Shown in pieces: positions 39,406 through 48,016 of a stretch of 64,000 bases of DNA (its first letter is position 1; each line of letters starts with the position of its first letter). The notes under the pieces are model-generated. The model had not been told where the DNA came from. It saw only the letters and a program-made list of their open reading frames with translations, and ran no database searches. Source of the DNA: Cyclobacteriaceae bacterium. Lineage in GTDB: Bacteria > Bacteroidota > Bacteroidia > Cytophagales > Cyclobacteriaceae. Position numbers and translations under genes: made by a program. The DNA lies in the NCBI GenBank assembly GCA_020832305.1, contig JAFIEV010000089.1, positions 248,001-312,000 on the forward strand, in the 5' to 3' direction.

Positions 39406-40755
39406 ATGATGACCCTTAGAAATCAACTTAAAATCACCTCTTTTGCCATCATTTTCTTTCTTTCATTATCCTGTAAGTCTGTAGAAGAAGAAAAGGTCAC
39501 CCCACCCAACATTATACTCATCATGGCCGATGATATGGGATATGAATGCCTGAGCGCCTATGGCAGCGCCTCCTATCATACCCCAAACCTCGATAAACTG
39601 GCGGATGAAGGTGTGCGCTTTGAACATTGCTATTCGCAACCGCTCTGTACACCGTCGAGGGTTAAGATCATGACCGGGAAATACAATTTCCGCAACTATG
39701 TGGCCTTTGGGTACCTCGATACAAAGGAAAAAACATTTGGCAACTATCTTCAGGAAGCAGGATACAGTACATGCGTAGCGGGTAAATGGCAACTAAACGG
39801 CATTTCCGGAGAGAAACGTGAAGGTTGGGACGACCTAAACAGACCGCATCACTTCGGATTTCAGGAATATTGCCTCTGGCAACTCGACCGTACCAAACCA
39901 GAAGGTGAACGATATGCCAATCCACTCATCAATATCAACGGAACCGAAATTCCCAGAGATGATGATAACTACGGTCCGGATGTCATTTATAATTTTGTAG
40001 AAGACTTTATCGAAAGGCATAAAGCAGGGCCTTTCTTTGTGTACTATCCCATGAACCTGGTACATGATCCCTTTGTGCCAACACCAGATACCAAGGCATG
40101 GGAAGATGCAACGATGCGATATGAAGACGATACCACCTTTTTTAAGGATATGGTAGCATACACTGATAAAATCATAGGAAAACTCATGCAGAAGTTGGAT
40201 AATAGCGGACTTGCAGATAACACACTCATACTTTTTACAGGTGACAATGGTACCCATCGCAAAATCCTTACAAAAATGACAGATGGCAGGATAATAAAAG
40301 GTGAGAAGGGTAGCATGACCGATGGAGGCACAAGGGTCCCGCTGATTGCCTATTGGAAAGGTCAATCCCAAAAAGGCGCCGTGAATACCGACCTTGTTGA
40401 TTTCAGTGACTTCCTCCCTACCCTGATGGATGCCGCTGGGATACCTTTGCCAGAAAATGAAAATTTTGACGGTCAGTCCTTTCTTCCACAAATCCTTGGA
40501 AAAGAAACCCATCCCAAAGAATACATTTACATGTATTATCAACCCAAATGGGGTAAAAATATTGATGGTGTATTTGTGAGAAATCAAAAATTCAAGCTCT
40601 ATGGCAACGGCAATTTTTATGATGTGGAAAACGATCCATTGGAAGAAAATCCGCTTGTGCCTGATGCGCAAACACAATCCACCAGGGATCGATTTGTAGA
40701 AATTCTGGCAGATATGCCTGGCATTCCTTCTGACATTAACAATGTAAATGATTGA
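39406..40755 (+). CDS. S1 sulfatase lipoprotein
   Basis: A 449-aa sulfatase. The open frame runs back to a TTG at 39280 inside the repeat edge, but ATG at 39406 (or 39409) gives a proper lipoprotein signal ([20 protein letters not shown], lipobox LSLSC, Cys23). Metal pair Asp42-Asp43 ([15 protein letters not shown]), formylglycine Cys81 in CTPSR (81-85), [20 protein letters not shown] and [11 protein letters not shown]. Its stop is 4 bases from the start of the next sulfatase, so the two were translationally coupled. Confidence 0.92.
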
Positions 40756-40759
40756 TTTT

Positions 40760-42233
40760 ATGCAAAATAAGATTGTTTGTTTGTTGTTCACCCTACTATT
40801 TCATTTGCCTGTCCAACAGGTAATTGCAGCGAATCGACCGAACATTCTCTTCATCGCCATTGATGACTTACGGCCGGAATTGGGCTTTTGTGGAAATGAA
40901 ATCATCAAAACGCCGAACATAGATAAACTTGCCTCAGAAGGCAGGGTCCTTTTTAAATCATTATGTACAGGTGCCCACCTGTGGTGCATCCCGGCATTCA
41001 TTGCTCACCGGCATCCGGCCTAACAAACCCATTCACCTGAACAACCATGCCATGTACGATGAGCTGGCGCCGCAAGCTGAAAAGGAATTCCCTGAAACTT
41101 TCGTACATCATTTTAAAAGACAACAATATTACACCGTAGGCATTGGAAAAATAAGCCACTCTACCGATGGTTATGTATATGGCTATGAAGAAGAAAAAAG
41201 CGATGTAAGGGAACTGCCACACAGCTGGGATGAATTGCTCTTTGATGCCGGTAAATGGAAAACGGGGTGGAATGCTTTTTTTGGATACGCCGATGGAAGC
41301 AACCGACAGGGCATGAAAAAGCAGGTAAAACCCTATGAAGCGGCAGATGTAGACGATGGCGGATACCCCGATGGACTGACAACCCGGCTCGCCATTGATA
41401 AATTAAAGGATTTATCGGGAAAAAACCAGCCATTTTTACTCGCTGTGGGATATTTTAAACCCCACCTGCCCTTTACAGCGCCCCAAAAATACTGGGATTT
41501 ATACAACAGGGATCAGCTACCCCTTGCACATATCAAAGATTTGCCCCAAAATGTGCATATGGCCAGTCTGCACAATAGCAGTGAATTCAACAGCTATGAA
41601 CAGGGGGATGAAAAAGCAGGAGCAGGTATCGTTTTCAGCGATGCTTACGCCCGAAAACTCATCCATGCGTATTATGCCTGTGTAAGTTACATCGATGCAC
41701 AAATCGGTCAATTGATCAAAGCCCTGGAGGAAAATGGGCTGGCTGACAATACGGTTATTGTACTTTGGAGCGACCATGGATGGCACCTGGGCGACCATAC
41801 CATCTGGGGGAAACACACCCTCTTTGAGAAAGCCCTAAAAAGTCCTTTGATTGTGTATTATCCGGGAATGAATGCCCCGGGAAAAGCCACATCGGCATTG
41901 GTAGAAACCGTTGATATATATCCGACCTTACTGGACATCTGTGGCATCCCTGCGCCGGGAAAACTGGATGGGAAATCATTGTACCCTGTATTGCAAAATC
42001 CCGATAATCAGGTTCAGAAAGCAGCTTACAGTTATTTCAGAAACGGCATTAGCATGCGAACTGATCGTTACCGGCTGACCCGTTACTATAGAGGAGAAGA
42101 AGCGCGTACAGAGCTCTATGACCACCTCACAGACCCGCATGAAACCATAAACATCGCTGATGAAAACCAGAAATTGGTCAAAAAACTCAGCAAGCTACTC
42201 GAAAAAGGCAATACTGGTTTGTATGATCAGTAA
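40760..42233 (+). pseudogene. Iduronate-2-sulfatase-like S1 sulfatase, frameshifted
   Basis: Two frames together make one sulfatase. The first (from ATG 40760, signal to VIAAN) reads [17 protein letters not shown] and [11 protein letters not shown]; the second continues [21 protein letters not shown] to the C-terminus at 42233 with FKPHLPFTAPQKYWDLY and WSDHGWHLGDH, typical of the iduronate-2-sulfatase-like group. The break is at about 40948-40950, where GTCCTTTTT needs one base fewer (or two more). The formylglycine cysteine (CGASR, codon at 40980) lies after the break, so the N-terminal product alone is inactive. Either a real mutation or a sequencing error; the rest of the frame is intact, so the change is recent. 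Confidence 0.88.
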
Positions 42234-42612: not shown

Positions 42613-43917
42613 TTACAATTTAATAAATTCCACCCTGCGGTTTTGTGCTTTGCCCTCGGGTGAGGTATTGGCAGCAACAGGCTCATTTTGACCTTTACCA
42701 TCGGTGGTCATACTTTCCGAAATTATTCCAAAATCAGAAACCAGGGCATTTTTAACCGCATCGGCACGACGCCTGGATAAATCAAGGTTGCTGGCAGCGG
42801 CTCCATCACTATCCGTATGGCCAATAATCTTTACTTTTATTCCAGGATTTTCCTTCAACACATTTGCTATTTCTTTAAGAACCCCGTATGATTCAGGCTT
42901 AATTTTATCACTTCCACTGTCGAATCTTATTCCCGTGGTAGATAATTTCCCTTCCGTAATTAATTTTGATCGCGTATCAGGGTTTCCTGAAGCTACACGC
43001 AGAGGCCCTAAGTAAGCCTCTCTGTTTTCCAGGAAATGGGTTGTAGTAGAAATCGCCATTCGATAATCAATGCCTTTCTCAAATGCGCGAGGTAAATCAA
43101 TTATTTTTTCTTCATTTAAATACATTCGTAAACGCGTACCCTGCCTCCAAATAGAGACATTAACAAAAGGCTTATCCGGCAAATAATATTGACCTTGCGA
43201 CTTATTATTGTCTAATTTTACAGCACTTTCACCATCTCTGCAGCTGATATAAAACCCTCCCAATGCATTGATCATAATTTCCACTATATTGGCATACTCA
43301 TAGCGTAGTAAATTGGAACTGATTTTCGAATCAATAAAATGAAATTGGGTTTGCACCTGATTTTCCTCGGTCGTTCCTATCTCAAACTCGATGGTTACAT
43401 TTTCCGGCAACACCCCAAGATTTTCAGGATAAAAAAGTCCTTCTCCACTCATTTTGAGCCATTTTCCTTCTTTATTATTTAGGCCAACAACCTCTCCAGA
43501 GCCATTTGTATTCCAGTTCACAGGAAAATCTCCTATGTCATCGGCGGCGTAATCATCGTAAAAAATCACTTTTTCGCCCGGCACAAAATCAAATTTGGAA
43601 TACGCCCTTATTTTTTCATCAGCTTTTTTTCCGGCCTCTTCGCGGGAAACATTTACGGACTTCTGTGTATCATTATTTTCTAATTCAGGTTGCGCTAATT
43701 CAGGATCTGACACCCCCGCCTCCTTTTTTCTAAAAACATCTTCTATCCCTTCCTCCGCTTTATCCAATCCTCGTTCCACACCCTGGTTTGAACGCTGTTC
43801 AACGCGGCGGTTGGTACTTTCCTTAGCGTTTCGCAATATCCGGTTGCCAAAACCTTCCTGTGCAAATACCCCTGACTGCATTAATAGCAATACAACTAAG
43901 AATAAAATATTTCTCAT
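42613..43917 (-). CDS. OmpA-family envelope protein
   Basis: A 434-aa protein with signal peptide MRNILFLVVLLLMQSGVFAQ (ATG at 43915-43917; an ATG four codons upstream is also possible). A charged region rich in Glu, Arg and Lys (about 22-110) is followed by a lectin-like beta domain (about 120-300, FYDDYAADDIGDFPVNWNTN) and a C-terminal OmpA/MotB peptidoglycan-binding domain (about 325-434) with IIGHTDSDGAAASNLDLSRRRADAVK and KAQNRRVEF. It would tie an outer-membrane or periplasmic structure to the cell wall. The middle domain resembles laminin-G-type folds only loosely. Confidence 0.88.
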   Translation of the reverse strand: MRNILFLVVLLLMQSGVFAQEGFGNRILRNAKESTNRRVEQRSNQGVERGLDKAEEGIEDVFRKKEAGVSDPELAQPELENNDTQKSVNVSREEAGKKADEKIRAYSKFDFVPGEKVIFYDDYAADDIGDFPVNWNTNGSGEVVGLNNKEGKWLKMSGEGLFYPENLGVLPENVTIEFEIGTTEENQVQTQFHFIDSKISSNLLRYEYANIVEIMINALGGFYISCRDGESAVKLDNNKSQGQYYLPDKPFVNVSIWRQGTRLRMYLNEEKIIDLPRAFEKGIDYRMAISTTTHFLENREAYLGPLRVASGNPDTRSKLITEGKLSTTGIRFDSGSDKIKPESYGVLKEIANVLKENPGIKVKIIGHTDSDGAAASNLDLSRRRADAVKNALVSDFGIISESMTTDGKGQNEPVAANTSPEGKAQNRRVEFIKL

Positions 43918-43998
43918 ATCGATGATCATTTTAATTGGTTAATACTGGTTCACTTTTTTCAACAAGGATTAGTATCCTCACAGTTGAAAAGTAAACAG

Positions 43999-44030
43999 TT
44001 GAAAAAAAATATTTTTTATTGTTTACTTTG
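43999..44030 (+). promoter_or_regulatory. Candidate Bacteroidota promoter for the ECF sigma/TPR genes
   Basis: TTG at 43999-44001, then 22 bases, then TACTTTG (44024-44030), one base short of TAnnTTTG; ATG follows 18 bases later. A second GTTGAAAA lies just upstream. Weak, pattern only. Confidence 0.4.
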
Positions 44031-44048
44031 CCTTTTTGGCTGTACTAA

Positions 44049-44591
44049 ATGTTTGAGGAAAAGCTATTATTGGAAAAATTGCGAAATAATGAGCCTGCTG
44101 CCATAGAATATGTCTATGTGCAGTATAAAAAGGCTTTTTTTGGGTTTATAGGTAAAATGGAATTAAACAAACAGGATATCGAAGACATTTACCAGGATGC
44201 CATCATTGCTTTAATCGAAAATCTGCAAAGGAGAAAGTTAGATGTCCTGATGAGTTCGGTAAAGACTTACCTTTTTTCCATTGGTAAATATATGGCAATC
44301 AAGCGGTGGCATAAAAAATTGCCCGGAAGTTCTGAAACGATTCCTGATCTGGTTTTTGAGGAAGGGCAAGTGGAAGATGTTTATGATAGCATGGCCACAG
44401 TGATTGAAAATAATTTTGATCGTCTGGGCCATAATTGCAGGGAAATACTCAGTATGTTTTACTATGAATCCCTGACCTTAGATGAAATATTACAAAAAAG
44501 CAGTTATGCCAATAAGGATGTTCTAAAAAGCAAAAAATCAAGATGCCTTAAAAAATTAAAAGAACTCTGCAAAATCGTAATCCATGGATAA
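44049..44591 (+). CDS. ECF RNA polymerase sigma factor
   Basis: A 180-aa ECF sigma: region 2 NNEPAAIEYVYVQYKKAFFG and IEDIYQDAIIALIENLQ, region 4 LGHNCREILSMFYYESLTLDEI with a helix-turn-helix to SRCLKKLKELC. It overlaps the following TPR gene by 8 bases, so the two are co-translated. In Bacteroidota such pairs often stand next to a CHAT-domain protein, as here. No FecR is present; the membrane TPR protein probably acts as its partner. Confidence 0.9.
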   Translation: MFEEKLLLEKLRNNEPAAIEYVYVQYKKAFFGFIGKMELNKQDIEDIYQDAIIALIENLQRRKLDVLMSSVKTYLFSIGKYMAIKRWHKKLPGSSETIPDLVFEEGQVEDVYDSMATVIENNFDRLGHNCREILSMFYYESLTLDEILQKSSYANKDVLKSKKSRCLKKLKELCKIVIHG

Positions 44592-45297
44592 GGAAGACCT
44601 CTTAAACCGCATATTCGAAGAAAACATCCCGGATGCAGATGCCATTAAAGCCCTGGGGGGTGACCATGAATTGCTGGAAGAATACCAATTCAGAAAATCT
44701 CTTCAGGTTGCCCTTATTCGCAAACGCAGGGTTGCCCAAAAAAAGTTACTCCATCAAATCAGTCTGAAAGAGCGTGTAAAAAGAAAAAGACTTATCTGGC
44801 TCGGTCTGGCCGCATCGCTAAGTCTGTTATTAGTAACTGTATGGATATTAAGGCCGCAATCTTCCACTGCTGAAGTGCTGTATGCACAGTACTATCAGAC
44901 CTTTCCCAACCGCATTGCCCCATCCCTGCGCGACCAAAACAAACAGCTGACAGAAGTGCAAAAGGCCTTTGTATTGTATGATAATGGAGAGTATTCCGAT
45001 GCCATCGTTGCATTTAAAAAACTTTATGAATCTGACAGAGAGGCCTTTTTGTTGTTTTACCTGGGTGTCAGCCATATGGAAACCGGACAGTTCAAACTGG
45101 CTTTACAATCTTTTAAAGAGCTAAAAAGCGATGATTTAAATCCTGATTTGCGAGGTTTTGAGATTTGGTATACGGGATTATGCCATTTGCGTTTGAATGA
45201 ACCAGCGGTGGCTAAAGAATACCTTGAATTACTTTCATCAAATGTTACTCATCCCATGTCGGAATTGAGCCGTAAACTCATAAGCGAATTGCCCTGA
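44584..45297 (+). CDS. Membrane-anchored TPR protein, candidate anti-sigma partner
   Basis: A 237-aa protein: cytoplasmic N-terminus about 1-75, one membrane span (LIWLGLAASLSLLLVTVWIL, about 79-98), then a periplasmic TPR-like part (VQKAFVLYDNGEYSDAIVAF, AFLLFYLGVSHMETGQFKLAL). The position and topology match an anti-sigma factor, with TPRs as the sensor half. It ends 20 bases inside the 3' end of the convergent CHAT gene. Confidence 0.78.
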   Translation: MDKEDLLNRIFEENIPDADAIKALGGDHELLEEYQFRKSLQVALIRKRRVAQKKLLHQISLKERVKRKRLIWLGLAASLSLLLVTVWILRPQSSTAEVLYAQYYQTFPNRIAPSLRDQNKQLTEVQKAFVLYDNGEYSDAIVAFKKLYESDREAFLLFYLGVSHMETGQFKLALQSFKELKSDDLNPDLRGFEIWYTGLCHLRLNEPAVAKEYLELLSSNVTHPMSELSRKLISELP

Positions 45298-48016
45298 CTT
45301 TACGATGCCTGCGCAGAAAAATAAAACCTGGTATCAGCAATATAGTAATCGCCCATATTGCAAGTAAATAGAAGGTTTTATCTTCATCCTGTGGTACAGC
45401 CATCATATTGCCATTGGCGACCATGCCGGCCCAATACAAAGGATGTTGTTTTAAAGGATTGGCCGAGATAAAAGTACGCTTTGCCTCTGCCAGCGCCACA
45501 TCTTTATCCATACCCTTTTTCAAATTACTATAATACTCCCACATAATTTCTCCGGTTTCACGGTCAGGAATAGGCCATACGCTGTAAAGCAAACTGCGGG
45601 CTCCTGCAAAGGTCAAAGCCCTTGACAGACTCATTATGCCAAGTCCGGGCTCTAAAGCACCCACGCCGGTATTACATGCGCTCAGCACCACCATTTCCGC
45701 GGGCAGATTCATGGAATATAATTCATAAAGATGAAGCTTATCACCCGACGAAAATATGAGTGAAGAGTTTTCATAGTTAAATACATCCTGCTCGGTATGC
45801 ATGGCAAAATGTATAAAGCGATAGTCCGGGGCTTCACTTTCAAAATTTTTATTTGTGGCTTCATCCCCGGTTAAAACTTTTCCTTTATACAGTTTTGCGA
45901 TCTTTTTTGATTCTTCAATATGGTTTTTGATCATGGGATATTTCACGCCATCGTAGGCAGGGGCAAACGCGATTAAATCTTTTTTGCCCATCCCTGCTTT
46001 ATTATTATCAATCGACTGTTGAAACAATTCCATGAGAGAGAAAGCATAACTAATATTGTACTTTTCCAGCATAAAAATATGATCCTGGGGCATTAATACC
46101 TCAAAGTTCAGTGCGGCCAGGTAAGCCTCCGGAATAAAAACAATGCGCTCTCCTTCAGACAATTGCAAGGATTTTACCAATATTCCATAAAGTTCTCCTG
46201 CAATATGTCTGTAATCCTCGCTGAGGCCTTGTACCGTTTTTATAAAAAAATCCACCATAACCTTTATTTCGTCCGGAGTGTTGTTGATCTTGAACATATG
46301 CCAGGAACCCGCTTTTAAAACAGCGGCAAATACATAATCCATACCGATAAAATACCTGACCACAGTTGTTTCCGTTTGCACCAGGGGAAGAAATGCTTTC
46401 ATGTTAAAAACCGGAGGGTTTTGAATGATCGCATTTAGTGATGTATTCAAGGTTGTCTGTTCAGTGCTTATGCCGGATTGAAAATTTTGCAATGCCCCTT
46501 GATGATCTGCTGCGGCAAAACTGTTTTGAAGGTTGAATTCATTTCTTTGAACAAACCTGGTCCAGTATTGTCTGGATTGGTTGTTTTCAAGCAGTTCTAT
46601 CAGCTCATGCCAGCTGGGACTACCGTATTCAAATTTTTGAATTGCTGCGTTTAGCAGTCCTTCCGTGATCTGTTTATGTATTGTATCAAGCGCTTGGTTA
46701 TATCTGCCTTTCAGATAATATTCAGAAAACATCCTTGCAGCCAAATGGAAAATCGAAAATGAAATATCCAGGTCTTTAGGGACTTCGCTTTTTATATACA
46801 GTCGATGGTAAGTCTGTGCGGCTTTTATAAAAATTGTCAGATAGCGATCGCTGTTAAGACCTCTAAGCTCAGAAAAATTCAGGTTTCGAAGTTGTTCCTC
46901 CTCAATTTCACGCCTAAGCAGTTCGGAAAATAAGTTGACCAGGGCCTGACGCGATTTACCATCCTCTCCTGTCCGTTCAAGTAATTCAGCCTTGAGAATG
47001 GTAAGCGTATAAAAGCTCGAACCACTTATTTTATGTTTCGCGAAAAAATCGAGGCTACGTTGGGTATATTGCAGGGCGGAGTGCCAGGCTCCGGAATCGT
47101 AGAATACAATGGCCATATTGGCCTGATACTTCATTTCATAGAAGTAATTTGTCTGTGGCATCAGCATTTTATTATAATAATGCATGGCCTTTGTAAATTG
47201 CTTTTCATTTTTAAACATATAGCCCGCCAATTCATAGGAAGACAGCAACTGTGCACTGAAATCAGGATGAAACCATTGTGGTTTAGCCAAAGCCATCTGC
47301 TCCAATACCCTCAAATCAGAAACCACCTGATCTTCATTTTTTACAAAAGCGTAATATTTTATGCGATCAAATTGCAGGGCAATCTTTCTTTTAAAAATTT
47401 CATGTTCGCTGAGCTTATGCTTATCGAATATTTCAGAAAGGTATTGCTCAAAAATTTTCAGATACTTTTCTGCGGTTTTTGCATCTCCGTATTCAATATA
47501 TCCCGATATCAGATTATTAAGAACAATAGAAAGATGTTGGTGGTCATCCCATGCCACGTTATACCATATTTCACAGGCTTTTTCATAATTCCATAGACTT
47601 CGGTTGGAGTATCCTGTCACATCATAGGCATAGGCCAGATTATTGTACATAAGTCCCAGATCAAAACTTACGGGTAACCGGGCTTGACGGTAAAAGGAGA
47701 TGGCTTTTAGGTAATGCTCAACAGCATTTTCATAGTTATCTTCATGACCATAAGCTATGCCCAGTTCTTTGTGCAGTTCGGCCAGAAATTCCGGTTCCCT
47801 GGCTTCTTTTAATTTATCAAGCAAAAATGCCATGAGGCCCTCAAAATCATCTGATGTTTTCCATTGTTCTGTTTCGCTGCGAAAAACGGCTATTTCAGGG
47901 TCTGTTTCGGCATATACATTTCTTAAGAAGAACAATGAAAAAGCTAAAAAAGCAATATTCCTGTACAGAAACCATACCCGTATTATGGTAAAAAGCATTA
48001 TCAGTCTTCCGATCAT
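45278..48016 (-). CDS. TPR-CHAT caspase-like protease, membrane anchored
   Basis: A 912-aa protein (ATG at 48014-48016; the frame extends to a TTG at 48043). Signal or anchor at the start (FLAFSLFFLRNVYA), then TPR repeats over about residues 30-400 (HKELGIAYGHEDNYENAVEH, YNNLAYAYDVTGYSNRSLWN). The C-terminal CHAT domain (about 590-880) has the catalytic pair His740 in FIHFAMH and Cys781 in VVLSACNTG, with GLGIMSLSRALTFAGARSLL and HPLYWAGMV. A last helix (about 880-900) anchors it, with a basic tail. CHAT proteins are clostripain/caspase-like peptidases. It converges on the sigma/TPR pair, with 20 bases of 3' overlap. Confidence 0.9.
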   Translation of the reverse strand: MIGRLIMLFTIIRVWFLYRNIAFLAFSLFFLRNVYAETDPEIAVFRSETEQWKTSDDFEGLMAFLLDKLKEAREPEFLAELHKELGIAYGHEDNYENAVEHYLKAISFYRQARLPVSFDLGLMYNNLAYAYDVTGYSNRSLWNYEKACEIWYNVAWDDHQHLSIVLNNLISGYIEYGDAKTAEKYLKIFEQYLSEIFDKHKLSEHEIFKRKIALQFDRIKYYAFVKNEDQVVSDLRVLEQMALAKPQWFHPDFSAQLLSSYELAGYMFKNEKQFTKAMHYYNKMLMPQTNYFYEMKYQANMAIVFYDSGAWHSALQYTQRSLDFFAKHKISGSSFYTLTILKAELLERTGEDGKSRQALVNLFSELLRREIEEEQLRNLNFSELRGLNSDRYLTIFIKAAQTYHRLYIKSEVPKDLDISFSIFHLAARMFSEYYLKGRYNQALDTIHKQITEGLLNAAIQKFEYGSPSWHELIELLENNQSRQYWTRFVQRNEFNLQNSFAAADHQGALQNFQSGISTEQTTLNTSLNAIIQNPPVFNMKAFLPLVQTETTVVRYFIGMDYVFAAVLKAGSWHMFKINNTPDEIKVMVDFFIKTVQGLSEDYRHIAGELYGILVKSLQLSEGERIVFIPEAYLAALNFEVLMPQDHIFMLEKYNISYAFSLMELFQQSIDNNKAGMGKKDLIAFAPAYDGVKYPMIKNHIEESKKIAKLYKGKVLTGDEATNKNFESEAPDYRFIHFAMHTEQDVFNYENSSLIFSSGDKLHLYELYSMNLPAEMVVLSACNTGVGALEPGLGIMSLSRALTFAGARSLLYSVWPIPDRETGEIMWEYYSNLKKGMDKDVALAEAKRTFISANPLKQHPLYWAGMVANGNMMAVPQDEDKTFYLLAIWAITILLIPGFIFLRRHRKVRAIRL

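Follow-up and report, generated by a model that had tools for sequence, protein, structure and literature searches.

A membrane-anchored TPR-CHAT peptidase as the candidate site-1 protease of its linked transmembrane anti-sigma factor in Bacteroidota

In the sigma-E pathway of RseA, DegS and RseP, an anti-sigma factor with one transmembrane (TM) helix is cut outside the membrane by a site-1 enzyme, a PDZ serine protease, and subsequently by a site-2 protease. The locus treated here lies in a 64,000-nucleotide stretch of DNA from a Cyclobacteriaceae bacterium (positions 248,001 to 312,000 of contig JAFIEV010000089.1, assembly GCA_020832305.1; hereafter the window) and is a cassette of three genes. 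They encode an extracytoplasmic function (ECF) sigma factor, a membrane protein with tetratricopeptide repeats (TPRs) that is probably its anti-sigma factor (ASF), and a TPR-CHAT protease (CHAT). Craspase/CASP of type III-E CRISPR likewise combines a TPR-CHAT protease (Csx29) with an ECF-like sigma factor (CASP-sigma) and a sigma inhibitor (Csx30); the accessible part of its description places the cut of the inhibitor in a flexible loop, has this cut lift the inhibition in the authors' model, and names the RseA/DegS/RseP pathway as well (PMC10028731). DdvS/DdvA of Myxococcus xanthus is, going by structure titles and names, an ECF sigma factor paired with a transmembrane anti-sigma factor whose fold is TPR-CHAT-like, and the available portion of one report states that DdvS controls an antiphage island (PMC12288465).

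The cassette resembles Craspase and DdvA in parts and is without a defining feature of each, namely soluble parts in the first case and a single chain in the second. Csx29 and its inhibitor are soluble, whereas here CHAT has an export signal plus a TM helix at its C-terminus, and ASF has one TM helix; in DdvA the CHAT fold lies within the anti-sigma chain, whereas the window holds separate open reading frames (ORFs). With the RseA pathway the cassette shares the proposed two-cut logic, and the source genome has two matches to M50 proteases, but where that pathway uses a PDZ serine protease, the linked protease here is a CHAT peptidase (clan CD, cysteine). No description of the cassette was found in a literature search, which covered few subscription papers. 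Genes, linkage, topology signals, fold, covariation and element conservation were computed here, and they make it likely that the three genes form a regulated-proteolysis cassette in which CHAT acts as the site-1 protease of ASF.

The sigma factor (180 aa, 44049..44591, + strand) is classed by its profile matches as an ECF sigma factor, with regions 2 and 4 and without region 3: Pfam Sigma70_r2 scores 25.4 bits (cut-off 24) and TIGR02937 sigma70-ECF 50.1 (42.9), spanning residues 18-172, while the region 4 model alone reaches 13.9, under its cut-off of 24.1, and no region 3 model is listed. ASF (237 aa, 44584..45297, + strand) consists of a helical N-terminal part, one TM helix (about residues 70-90) and a TPR domain beyond it (Pfam TPR_2, 38.7 bits, cut-off 27). 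Its AlphaFold2 model has a predicted local distance difference test (pLDDT) score of 90.5; beyond the TM helix the chain continues as coil, with a mean pLDDT of 65 over residues 111-120, and the model's matches in the Protein Data Bank (PDB) are general TPR proteins. No known anti-sigma domain was found among the Pfam matches of the N-terminal part. The protein fits the layout of a transmembrane anti-sigma factor, with its gene beside that of a sigma factor, one TM helix and an N-terminal part predicted to lie inside, and it probably restrains the sigma factor, to which it would bind.

CHAT (906 aa, 45278..47998, - strand) scores 166.6 bits against the Pfam CHAT model (PF12770, clan CD; cut-off 24) with its domain at residues 541-866 (45401..46378). 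The dyad His734 (45797-45799) and Cys775 (45674-45676) is kept in all 29 aligned relatives, and by domain score and dyad the protein is classed as a CHAT-family peptidase. The preferred start codon is the ATG at 47998; the reading of this locus from sequence alone had begun six codons further upstream, at 48016, so that its Cys781 is Cys775 here. That reading had described overlapping sigma and TPR genes, a CHAT gene converging on them with a 20-base 3' overlap and an intact catalytic His and Cys, and all of this stands: the sigma and ASF frames overlap by 8 nt, and the ASF and CHAT genes share 45278..45297.

The evidence that carries the proteolytic reading is the pairing of one residue in ASF with one in CHAT. 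The ASF loop just outside the membrane (residues 104-123, 44893..44952, + strand) has the motif Y/F-P-N-...-P-x-x-R-G/S, in which Arg116 (44929-44931), the proposed cleavage site, is invariant (31/31). Over 67 trios of CHAT, ASF and sigma genes, this site is Arg in 60 and Met in seven (L007, L100, L102, L106, L209, L212, L215). Across the 64 distinct trios, only two of the CHAT columns with a constancy of 96% or more in the Arg group change in at least six of the seven Met types: Glu696 (45911-45913, - strand; 7/7) and Asp812 (45563-45565, - strand; 6/7). Among 66 aligned rows of other CHATs, which represent 61 distinct genes, all have Glu696 and 65 have Asp812; one of these rows (L023) has a pair beside it, and 30 were judged within about 1.5 kb alone. 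A prediction was then set beforehand and 345 genomes of the class were searched with a profile of the Met-type ASF, from which 40 regions were fetched and 22 trios obtained. CHAT was without Glu696 in all 17 new trios with Met (16) or Leu (1) at the ASF site, and Glu696 was present in the three with Arg. Combined, Glu696 accompanies Arg partners in 59/59 readable trios, which exclude a CHAT fragment without position 696 (L158), and Met/Leu partners in 0/24. In a CHAT tree built without both columns, the Met/Leu types fall into three clades (support 0.74, 0.98 and 0.99), which amounts to 3 changes, as against a mean of 20.9 when shuffled. Convergent Met types exist (L215, L263, L280), and the Arg/Met switch is therefore not simply tied to gene order.

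Separase, which cleaves cohesin, and gingipain R, a secreted protease, differ in their biology from the cassette; the likeness lies in the CHAT fold, which matches that of separase, and in an acidic residue that follows strand 1 and would read Arg. Glu696 sits in helix 693-703 of the CHAT model, after strand 673-680. In the separase model, as given in the accessible part of its description, two residues hold the P1 Arg: a Glu located between strand 1 and helix 1, which corresponds to Asp163 in gingipain R, and a second one, an Asp of helix 4 (PMC4626109). In Csx29, according to the available portions of two reports, a Lys replaces the P1-Arg residue D2151 of separase, and Csx30 is cut after Leu407 or at 427-429 (PMC10028731, PMC9729208). 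By this comparison Glu696 would read a P1 Arg, and its loss would go with Met or Leu at that position. Asp812 was also considered as a P1 reader and was dropped: its covariation is weaker, and by a spacing argument D2151 of separase falls 4 residues further.

Topology and fold are consistent with such a reaction. Every complete CHAT from the named loci (34/34) combines a hydrophobic N-terminus with a TM helix at the C-terminus (a 35th is cut by a contig end); in the window these are a signal-sequence-like N-terminus (residues 1-31, 47906..47998, - strand) and a helix with a basic tail (residues 874-905, 45284..45379, - strand). In contrast, a C-terminal TM helix occurs in only one of the 30 CHATs that score best against Pfam within the order. 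Because the linked CHATs combine an export signal with a membrane anchor, they should face the periplasm. Four N-termini (L126, L127, L151, L152) contain a lipobox-like Cys, and some of these proteins may be lipoproteins besides being TM-anchored. The AlphaFold2 model of CHAT (pLDDT 84.9) shows helical repeats to about residue 540, the CHAT domain to 866 and a helix at 874-905. A Foldseek search with it against the PDB placed Csx29 first (E 5.9e-18), separases from rank 10 and DdvA at ranks 26-27. VIA comparison gave Z 32.3 for Csx29 (540 residues aligned, root-mean-square deviation (rmsd) 7.4), Z 28.4 for separase 5fby (315 aligned, rmsd 3.1) and Z 23.7 for DdvA (574 aligned, rmsd 13.0), while a sequence-only search of the CHAT domain against the PDB yielded weak matches (best E 0.018).

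The match to DdvA brings up a different role, in which CHAT binds ASF without cutting it and, sensing from outside, alters the grip of ASF on the sigma factor, a version in trans of the TPR-CHAT part of DdvA. The DdvA entries (8rot, 8rw5) are titled transmembrane anti-sigma factor, with a chain named CHAT domain-containing protein, and match the CHAT model at E 1.6e-12 and 2.5e-12, in addition to the VIA score above. Neither the retention of the His-Cys dyad nor a putative specificity residue of the protease that varies with the partner's loop residue is expected of a protein that does not cut, and this role is unlikely. A membership of the cassette in a known defence system was also considered and dropped, as PADLOC gave no match for the sigma factor, ASF or CHAT.

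The sequence-only reading had proposed a survey of the gene neighbourhoods of this CHAT type, and the linkage turned out to be conserved. A scan of named genomes with the CHAT alignment gave 39 loci, 34 of which hold CHAT, ASF and sigma genes in the convergent layout, in Algoriphagus, Lacihabitans, Flavobacterium, Mesonia, Muricauda, Sediminibacterium and other genera; among the remaining five, two are cut by a contig end (L129, L135), one has an ASF-like fragment at a contig end (L128), and two have none (L154, L155). With an ASF profile run on 296 genomes of the phylum, 10 of the 29 best loci outside the own genome had a CHAT gene within about 1.5 kb. The layout in the window is not due to chance, since the same genome contains a paralogous TM-TPR/sigma pair on which another CHAT gene (C22) converges, and a co-directional version in which a CHAT gene (C59) follows a sigma/TM-TPR pair in one overlapping run. 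Three of the four CHAT genes of the source genome thus have such a pair; the fourth (C27, L006:3074-7335) has no sigma pair adjoining and is followed by an apparent PAS histidine kinase gene. Conversely, a fourth sigma/TM-TPR pair of this genome has no adjoining CHAT gene (L018:4057-5396), and a further related sigma gene (L019:4234-5660) stands with that of a probable membrane protein without TPRs, near exopolysaccharide-type genes.

A census of 77 CHATs from 27 genomes ties the linkage to the anchored type. Among the 51 anchored proteins, 34 are linked to a pair, three to a sigma gene alone and 14 to neither; for the 26 unanchored proteins the numbers are two, one and 23 (pair linkage 34/17 vs 2/24, Fisher p = 5e-7). 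The census retained 77 of 89 CHAT matches, leaving out 12 weak, partial or ~1800-aa forms (L216 and L217 among them), and 16 of the 27 genomes had been picked for ASF matches, so that the share of linked genes cannot be taken as an average for the phylum. Three entries were settled by hand: L181 repeats L186, L173 is linked though its sigma gene is unscored, and the second CHAT of L186 is unlinked. Around other CHATs, ten of the proteins encoded alongside were tested, five being PKD-DUF7619-DUF7849 proteins and two subtilases. Anchored CHAT genes without a sigma pair directly follow PKD-DUF7619-DUF7849 genes, often overlapping them, at L193, L200, L201, L203 and L206, and follow subtilase genes at L198 and L202; these proteins may be other substrate or sensor partners of anchored CHATs.

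Could the genes be unrelated and merely held together by overlapping 3' ends? At 31 measured loci the CHAT and ASF ends overlap in 25, are separated by 2-30 nt in five and by 660 nt in one, and the overlaps would fit such a neighbourhood effect. It is scarcely credible, however, as the 67 trios (64 distinct) comprise nine co-directional and five divergent arrangements next to 53 convergent ones, the linkage is specific to the anchored CHAT type, and the partners covary. Trios were defined as separate ORFs, a definition that would miss fused anti-sigma/CHAT forms elsewhere; second copies of counted strains with identical ASF (L131, L143, L153) were kept in the 67 trios and in the 72 promoter loci described below, and out of the covariation counts. 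Distance matrices over the 67 trios correlate at r = 0.62 for CHAT and ASF, 0.65 for CHAT and sigma, and 0.82 for ASF and sigma, values reached by within-genome partner swaps in 1, 0 and 0 of 1000 cases, respectively.

Several points weigh against a cleavage of ASF by its linked CHAT. On the side of the covariation, the letters at the ASF site were taken by eye from alignments; in L209, an alternative alignment shifted by one residue would place a Glu at 696; and Asp812 covaries less well, with Asp in 5 of the 24 Met/Leu types. The second set of trios came from a Met-type profile and tests the Met side well (17) and the Arg side little (3), and two of its trios (L265, L267) were left out, with a gap of more than 2 kb, an unclear site, and residue 696 absent and Asp, respectively. 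One of the three Met clades has a support of 0.74, and the position of Glu696 in the S1 pocket is a placement from sequence and secondary structure. On the side of the linkage, 14 of the 51 anchored CHATs adjoin neither a pair nor a sigma gene, and pairs occur without CHAT (L018 of the own genome and 19 of the 29 profile loci outside it, within about 1.5 kb). Moreover, 18 of the 40 regions fetched with the Met-type profile gave no trio, some being cut by contig ends, and unanchored CHATs stand beside a pair or a sigma gene in L085 and L175 and, outside the census, in L115 and L117.

The following course of events would unite the observations. The cytoplasmic N-terminal part of ASF would hold the sigma factor at the inner membrane, and the exported CHAT would sense the envelope with about 500 residues of TPR-type helices, its C-terminal helix placing the protease half just above the membrane. 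An envelope signal would activate CHAT, which would then cut the ASF loop directly outside the TM helix, after Arg116 (or after Met/Leu in the other subtype). The remaining stump would be removed by general proteases, e.g. the M50 site-2 protease of the genome, a second cut that we infer from the RseA pathway. The freed sigma factor may then act through the element GTTTAC-N17-ACTAA, described below, on a divergent OmpA-family gene, perhaps on the operon that encodes it and, in certain Flavobacteriales, also on the CHAT gene. It had been proposed from the sequence that the protease may cleave the TPR anti-sigma factor; computational support for this comes chiefly from the covariation of loop and protease residues, and further from the conservation of the linkage, the agreement in topology and the correlated divergence. 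The other half of that proposal, CHAT as the output of a stress or cell-death switch, may hold as far as expression goes, in view of the promoter-like element directed at CHAT in a minority of loci; nothing points to cell death.

This element concerns the predicted targets of the sigma factor. The divergent upstream neighbour of the sigma gene encodes an exported OmpA-family protein (438 aa, 42613..43929, - strand; Pfam OmpA, 87 bits), probably a target of the sigma factor; an OmpA homologue takes this place in 25 of 72 sigma/ASF loci, the window included. Between the two genes of the window lie two inverted copies of GTTTAC-N17-ACTAA, one directed at the OmpA gene (43969..43996, - strand), ending 39 nt before its ATG, and one directed at the sigma gene (44021..44048, + strand), abutting its ATG. 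With this exact spacing the element occurs twice in the 6.5-Mb genome, both times at this locus. With a slightly relaxed pattern, 30 of the 72 loci show a copy directed away from sigma and 27 a copy directed toward it; 20 loci have both copies and 37 at least one, whereas shuffled controls averaged 0.85 and 1.05 of 72 loci. Where a divergent start codon was found, the away copy ends 18-45 nt before it. The element resembles a promoter of the sigma type, which the sigma factor would use in transcription. In 19 of the 25 scanned sites, the sigma-facing copy overlaps the sigma start codon in the form A(C/T)TAATG; in the window, its -10-like half abuts the start codon (44044-44051), an odd position for a promoter. 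From there transcripts would start inside the sigma gene, one possibility being that the sigma factor then boosts its anti-sigma factor alone. A scan for the regulon in the own genome gave 73 copies with at most one mismatch, fewer than the 295 of a reversed control, and no sure further targets.

Toward CHAT, GTTTAC-N17-A(C/T)TAA was found in 6 of 37 CHAT upstream regions (L122-L125, L129, L134), all Flavobacteriales records, 16-27 nt before the start codon; scanned in both directions, the other 31, that of the window included, had no CHAT-directed element. In these Flavobacteriales CHAT may be a regulon member, giving a positive feedback loop. It could also be asked whether CHAT is mainly an output of the sigma factor, i.e. 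a stress protease with other substrates that belongs to the regulon of the adjoining pair. Such a role would agree with the linkage of CHAT to the pair, with the six CHAT-directed elements and, in the C22 paralogue, with a variant element (GGTTACC) of which one copy lies before the sigma gene and one between CHAT and a divergent gene for a 131-aa protein; the latter copy points at the 131-aa gene. The 31 regions without a CHAT-directed element and the convergent position of CHAT, outside the sigma operon, in 53 of the 67 trios speak against it, and an output alone leaves the covariation with the ASF loop unexplained. As the whole explanation it is decidedly unlikely; as positive feedback it is compatible with CHAT acting as the site-1 protease.

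On balance, the data lean toward a wider reading, in which exported, anchored, separase-like CHATs of Bacteroidota constitute a class of site-1 proteases in ECF sigma signalling that has so far gone unrecognised. Each enzyme would be tuned to the anti-sigma factor it is paired with, and Arg-reading would have given way to Met/Leu-reading on three or more occasions, each time through the loss of a single S1 Glu; Craspase and DdvA would then be the soluble and the fused members of one TPR-CHAT/anti-sigma theme. If this is true, the cassette represents an envelope-to-nucleoid signalling route in Bacteroidota with a trigger protease related to separase and Csx29, a role is explained for many exported CHAT proteins of this phylum, and the CRISPR-linked Craspase switch falls within a wider sigma/anti-sigma theme. 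The pairing of ASF Arg116 with CHAT Glu696 makes the model directly testable, and the natural Arg/Met pairs are candidate orthogonal protease-substrate pairs.

Further upstream in the window, a sulfatase-like gene at 40748-42233 is broken into two frames that overlap (ORFs 40748-41023 and 40929-42233), an arrangement suggestive of a frameshift or sequencing error.

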